A stretch of 64,000 bases of DNA from positions 1-64,000 of the forward strand of contig JAHDBD010000012.1 in NCBI GenBank assembly GCA_020630575.1, written 5' to 3'. Source of the stretch: Bernardetia sp. (lineage in GTDB: Bacteria > Bacteroidota > Bacteroidia > Cytophagales > Bernardetiaceae). Position numbers and translations under genes: made by a program. Below the pieces are notes generated by a model that worked only from the letters and a program-made list of their open reading frames with translations, did no database searches and was not told the origin of the DNA. This document shows, one piece after another, positions 48,305 through 48,646 of the stretch (position 1 is the stretch's first letter; the number at the start of each line of letters is the position of its first letter).

Positions 48305-48646
48305 ATTATATTTTACTCATTTATATGAAGTTGTATTAAAATGAAAAAGTATTTTGGATACCCTAGAATATAAAAAAATCATTTTAAGTAGTTTCACTAT
48401 AAATTGATTTTAAAGCTATTCAAAAAAAGAGAGCCAAATTATTTGTAAAATAAATTTTCAATGCTCTTTTTGAAGTAATAGAAAGAGAGCAGAAACTAAG
48501 ATATAATCTATAATTATTTTGATAATTTAATTAAAATAAATATAATATCATTACAAGTTTTTTATACTTTATAATAAGATTTATGTGTTTTTAGATGTTT
48601 TATTATGATTATATCGTGATTTTTTTGTGAAAAAATGAATGAAAAA
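48305..48646. other. Region between lanC2 and cassette 4
   Basis: AT-rich, 342 bases. It contains the hppD pseudogene fragment listed separately (48406-48513); the rest shows no gene. Confidence 0.5.
48406..48513 (+). pseudogene. Degenerate copy of the hppD 3' end
   Basis: About 108 bases align with the last codons of hppD (44322-44429) at roughly 75-80% by eye: GCTCTTTTTGAA and ATAGAAAGAGA are identical. Read in the hppD frame it gives AKLFVK-stop-IFNALFEVIEREQKLRYNL against [20 protein letters not shown], ending at the same stop. It marks the left edge of the duplicated unit that produced cassette 4. Confidence 0.8.

Follow-up and report, generated by a model that had tools for sequence, protein, structure and literature searches.

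A decayed hppD tail within a predicted lanthipeptide array of Bernardetia sp. as the probable scar of repeated tandem duplication

Introduction

How did a decayed end of hppD, a gene for 4-hydroxyphenylpyruvate dioxygenase, come to lie in the middle of an array of putative lanthipeptide precursor genes? Tandem duplications leave truncated copies of flanking genes, and the fragment before the fourth precursor of this array raises the question of whether it is a mark of this kind and of what was copied along with it. The locus belongs to Bernardetia sp. (assembly GCA_020630575.1), and the window is the whole stretch of 64,000 nt that was analysed, positions 1-64,000 of the forward strand of contig JAHDBD010000012.1. 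Class I precursors that combine an LxLxKx5L motif with a leader ending in GG have been described in Bacteroidetes, and clusters with many distinct precursors have been reported among them (PMC7268733).

Results

The gene phhA (42456-43214; TIGR01267) lies just upstream of an intact hppD (43332-44429; TIGR01263, 461.8 bits, cut-off 277), and from hppD onwards all features of the array are on the + strand. The leader region of cassette 1 (44430-44714) comprises a terminator-like stretch directly after hppD, a promoter-like site (44577-44607) and a DUF805b RNA (44646-44684), and is followed by the open reading frame of precursor A1 (44715-44867), whose leader reads MKTNKKLKLNTKKIVILSKEQQASVQGG. 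Cassette 2 (44868-45332), with post-hppD sequence from about 44874, a DUF805b RNA at 45082-45119 and precursor A2 at 45147-45332, precedes an intact lanthionine cyclase gene, lanC2 (45404-46519; PF05147, E = 2.8e-24; HGVCG, WCYGD and CHG motifs). A short hppD-end trace (46587-46612) stands before the DUF805b RNA (46809-46846) and precursor A3 (46877-47116) of cassette 3, which together span 46809-47116 and are followed by a second intact cyclase gene, lanC3 (47186-48304), 80.7% identical to lanC2 at the nucleotide level. Next come the putative copy of a lanC-lanB spacer (48305-48343), the hppD tail relic (48406-48513) and the leader region of cassette 4 (48514-48782), which holds post-hppD sequence, a promoter-like site (48647-48677) and a DUF805b RNA (48717-48753). 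The array closes with the open reading frame of precursor A4 (48783-48986), 97% conserved in a sister strain, a lanC4 remnant (49054-49158) and a single, full-length lantibiotic dehydratase gene, lanB (49172-52327; PF04738, E = 1.3e-119; PF14028, E = 9.1e-67).

The four precursors have the common leader MK(T/A)NKKLKLNTKK(I/V)VILSxxQQxxVQGG and Cys-containing cores that are unlike one another. A1-A4 matched class I lanthipeptide leader models below cut-off (NF038153, 17.4-19.0 with a cut-off of 22; NF038158, 15.8-19.3 with a cut-off of 27), and another precursor of this genome, on contig C36, did pass the leader model cut-off. Both lanC2 and lanC3 match PF05147 and keep the Cys and Cys-His motifs of the zinc site (WCYGD, CHG), and the glutamylation and elimination domains of LanB score over cut-off; the products of the array are predicted to be class I lanthipeptides with (methyl)lanthionine rings. 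A DUF805b element (Rfam RF02914) was found upstream of every array precursor at 34.5-41.5 bits, three of the four passing the gathering score of 35.6 and the one before A1 falling just short. The promoter-like pattern, TTTG-N19-TATATTTG, had nine matches in the whole window against 6.06 expected, which is not above chance, and only the repeated placement before A1, A3 and A4 favours these sites. None of the scanned cluster genes was recognised as a protease or exporter; C39 peptidase matches were obtained for long open frames at other places in the genome.

The sequence-only reading had described the relic as a copy of the last ~36 codons of hppD at 48406-48513. The decayed copy is real, with 35 codons aligned (codons 331-365), and its first three positions, 48406-48408, are not clearly homologous: similarity begins at 48409, equivalent to 44325 in hppD, and from there to 48513 the alignment is gap-free with 79 of 105 nt identical. 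The longer local alignment that contains the relic scored 66, compared with a mean of 17.2 for shuffled sequences (sd 2.4, max 31; z ~20). The relic reads DFKAIQKKRAKLFVK*IFNALFEVIEREQKLRYNL*, so that the in-frame stop and the shared final stop pointed out in that reading could be read directly, as one internal stop and the same final TAA as in hppD. Differences from hppD affect 9, 8 and 9 of the 35 first, second and third codon positions, respectively, an even spread as expected for a dead copy without codon constraint; hppD itself changes between species mainly at third codon positions. Within its own genome, the fragment matched only hppD itself.

Self-comparison of the array revealed the predicted diagonal, a collinear block joining 44347-44797 to 48431-48865 (74.8% over 457 columns, E = 1.5e-73), which continues unbroken beyond hppD through the post-hppD sequence, the promoter region, the DUF805b RNA and the precursor leader. 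All three later cassettes contain hppD-side DNA, with three different starts, namely codon ~331 in cassette 4, the last two codons in cassette 3 and a point just after the stop in cassette 2. The trace before cassette 3, previously taken as a shorter hppD fragment, is significant (score 31; null mean 14.3-14.9, max 24), but of hppD it holds only TTATAA, the last codon and stop, the remainder being post-hppD sequence. Cassette 2, whose beginning had been overlooked, also opens with post-hppD sequence (44437-44799 versus 44875-45231, 79.5% over 365 nt, E = 9e-83; z 17-19), starting at ~44874, just past the equivalent of the hppD stop. One duplication boundary common to all cassettes was not found, and with three different start points the evidence does not amount to a single fixed unit. 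Thus, the proposed tandem unit that begins within hppD and carries promoter, precursor and lanC describes cassette 4, in which the collinearity includes the RNA leader and lanC is now a remnant, but is not shown to be one fixed unit for the array.

Cassette 1 is without a lanC, and cassette 4 keeps only the two ends of one, which had also been missed: 49058-49109 matches the start of lanC3 and 49123-49156 the end of lanC2 and lanC3 (scores of 36 and 30, null ~14), corresponding to the first ~50 nt and the last 34-36 nt of the gene with the middle deleted. Because 48305-48343 resembles the spacer between this remnant and lanB (49142-49179; p ~0.04, weak alone, with support from a second comparison), the copied block may have ended, on its downstream side, close to the start of lanB. 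The 5' end of lanB was sought in 48320-48408 and not found there.

Another genome of the species (G039) carries the relic at the same place, 86% identical to that of the window, and the relic is therefore not an assembly artefact. The relics of the two strains have the same start and 18 common differences from hppD; a further 6 and 7 differences are found in one relic only. The in-frame stop occurs only in the window's strain, and the sister relic has a different stop. A CTA Leu codon common to hppD and the relic was considered as proof of recent origin and dropped, the sister strain having TTG in hppD and TTA in the relic. The two strains are 97% identical in cassette 4, 96% in the lanC remnant and 97% in lanB. 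G039 is without the block of A2, lanC2 and A3; instead, its cassettes 1 and 2 contain two precursors that are its own. Its lanC in the position of lanC3 (6005-7123 of locus L093 versus 47186-48304 of the window) is 79.8% identical to lanC3, with flanks of 91-98% identity and a spacer beyond of 91%; a difference of 20% amid such flanks points to replacement of the cyclase gene between strains.

Among the congeners, G003 (locus L043) shows a simple arrangement at this site: hppD, two precursors, one lanC, lanB and mlaF, with an orthologous LanB of 86% amino acid identity and no relic. In the four others, G001, G002, G004 and G005, an mlaF-like gene directly follows hppD and there is no cluster. 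These loci speak against the earlier suggestion that the array originated from a precursor gene downstream of the tyrosine-catabolism operon: since G003 has precursors, lanC and lanB together in a simple cluster and the hppD-mlaF interval is empty in four congeners, a whole cluster probably stood beside hppD before the array grew. A scan of genome contigs with LanB returned only distant relatives from other Bacteroidetes (24-32% identity), which did not help with the history of the array.

Distances among the copies gave a roughly fitting age. Between lanC2 and lanC3, dS was 0.73 (dN/dS 0.19); between this species and G003, dS was 0.59 for hppD and 0.63 for lanB; and the Jukes-Cantor (JC) distance between the relic and hppD was 0.30. 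In lanC trees, lanC3 and the G039 lanC grouped together (support 99), and the order of lanC2, that pair and G003 was weakly resolved (74-83). The lanC trees place the duplication near the split from G003, and an AU test retained the alternatives; the branching of the congeners was not settled by a species tree built on phhA, hppD and mlaF. At sites that distinguish both hppD copies of the species from that of G003, the relic agrees with its own species by 7 to 1, a count that is suggestive only. On these comparisons, the duplication dates from about the time of the G003 split, more likely after it. lanC2 goes back far beyond the split of the two strains; G039 has therefore probably lost it, or else the window's strain received it. 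The kept frames and motifs and the low dN/dS of both lanC copies imply that both are in use, and the different cyclases may serve different precursors.

We consider it probable that the relic is the scar of repeated tandem duplication, in which hppD tail, promoter, RNA, precursor and lanC were copied as a block, and that decay, loss and turnover of lanC came afterwards. Supporting observations are the homology and collinearity of the copies, the even decay of the relic, its presence in a second strain, the simpler cluster of a relative and the empty sites of other congeners; the rough fit of the ages, the gutted lanC4 standing where it would be expected and the kept motifs and low dN/dS of both lanC copies add to these. 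Points against it are the different starts of the later cassettes, the lack of any recognisable match for 46540-46586 and 48344-48405, and the lanC trees, which leave the order of events weakly resolved. A chance likeness of intergenic DNA comes to mind in a region that is very AT-rich and in which weak chance matches do occur (48305-48640 versus 46520-46730, z 2.6), but the z of ~20, the 457-nt collinear match and the same fragment in another strain refute it, leaving it a negligible probability.

A second full-length hppD might also have been copied and then cut back to the tail; codon 331 would in that case be a deletion edge and not a duplication edge. The ~62 nt before the relic (48344-48405) are unassigned, and the unit starts vary by cassette, both of which would suit such trimming; we nevertheless regard it as improbable, given that no trace of earlier hppD parts was detected in 48305-48408 (score 13, null 12.7) and that the start is the same in both strains. 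Slightly better placed, and still unlikely, is an import in which recombination at the hppD tail, through circle integration or homologous exchange, brought the extra cassettes in from a related strain; this would leave the same scar. The divergent cyclase gene between conserved flanks suggests that lanC modules may be swapped, and four congeners have no cluster at the site, but the relic is nearer to the hppD of its own species than to that of G003 or the other congeners, so that the donor would have to be very close, and lanC2 and lanC3 group near each other.

Discussion

If tandem duplication is the correct account, a class I lanthipeptide cluster would have stood between hppD and the mlaF-like gene, and a block that began at hppD codon ~331, took in promoter, DUF805b RNA and precursor and ended shortly after lanC would have been copied head to tail. 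The copied hppD tail, being functionless, would have decayed neutrally. Selection would have kept the promoter, the RNA leader, the leader peptide and the cyclase, and the core peptides would have diverged until no longer recognisable. The different starts of cassettes 2, 3 and 4 cannot stem from a single event unless they were trimmed later. The present array would then have come about through additional duplications with slightly shifted starts, one small duplication of a precursor alone (A1/A2), an internal deletion in the last lanC, and the loss or replacement of copies between strains, an order of events that we infer. In such an array, four differently cored precursors would be served by one LanB and two LanCs, and a C39 peptidase encoded elsewhere may remove the leaders. 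It is possible, and we offer this tentatively, that precursor, own cyclase and DUF805b form exchangeable cassettes that are moved, duplicated and swapped between strains against a fixed LanB; one strain would then make several differently ringed peptides, and the sets would differ among strains.

The array resembles the reported Bacteroidetes clusters (PMC7268733) in its full-length LanB, separate LanC and several precursors with near-identical, GG-ending leaders and unlike cores. Its leaders follow LxLxTKx4L, with the Lys one position later than in the LxLxKx5L motif of that study, and, unlike those clusters, it has two intact and one gutted LanC beside one LanB, a visible hppD scar and no recognised protease or transporter gene in the cluster. 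The locus shares with that of G003 its place between hppD and mlaF and its orthologous LanB and LanC, and differs from the one lanC and two precursors there in having the hppD relic and the lanC remnant. As a truncated neighbour gene that decays without function at a junction, the relic does not differ in principle from tandem-duplication scars in general. The event type is known and fairly ordinary, and clusters of class I lanthipeptides with multiple precursors are known, this one being a further member. Its steps are unusually legible, with an empty site that may be ancestral or the result of loss, a simple cluster and an expanded array, and with two strains of one species that differ in contents, copy number and cyclase type. 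The growth of a multi-precursor lanthipeptide array has thereby left a directional record, with a neutral neighbour-gene relic marking the junction.

The array also ties a little-studied RNA element, DUF805b, to lanthipeptide precursors; nothing on it was found in the papers searched. DUF805b was likewise found before the lanthipeptide precursor on contig C36 and before precursors in two congeners, and most matches in related genomes precede a start codon by ~20-40 nt, in many cases that of a small secreted-looking protein. Across 21 DUF805b sequences, two interleaved helices are kept in mostly standard pairs through compensatory changes, one pairing arm positions 2-5 with the bases after GAAAA and the other pairing the three bases before GAAAA with a GGN near the 3' end, which suggests a pseudoknot.

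The C36 precursor belongs to a second lanthipeptide cluster of the same genome (locus L045, 182-192 kb), in which DUF805b, precursor, lanC and a lanB with 54% identity to the array LanB were recognised. Between its precursor and lanC lie what we take, from reading the sequence, to be luciferase-like monooxygenase and erythromycin-esterase-like genes. In the window itself, a repeat of ~40 nt occurs downstream of lanB at 54676-54719 and 55181-55224; it recurs several times in the G003 region and is present near hppD in G004.
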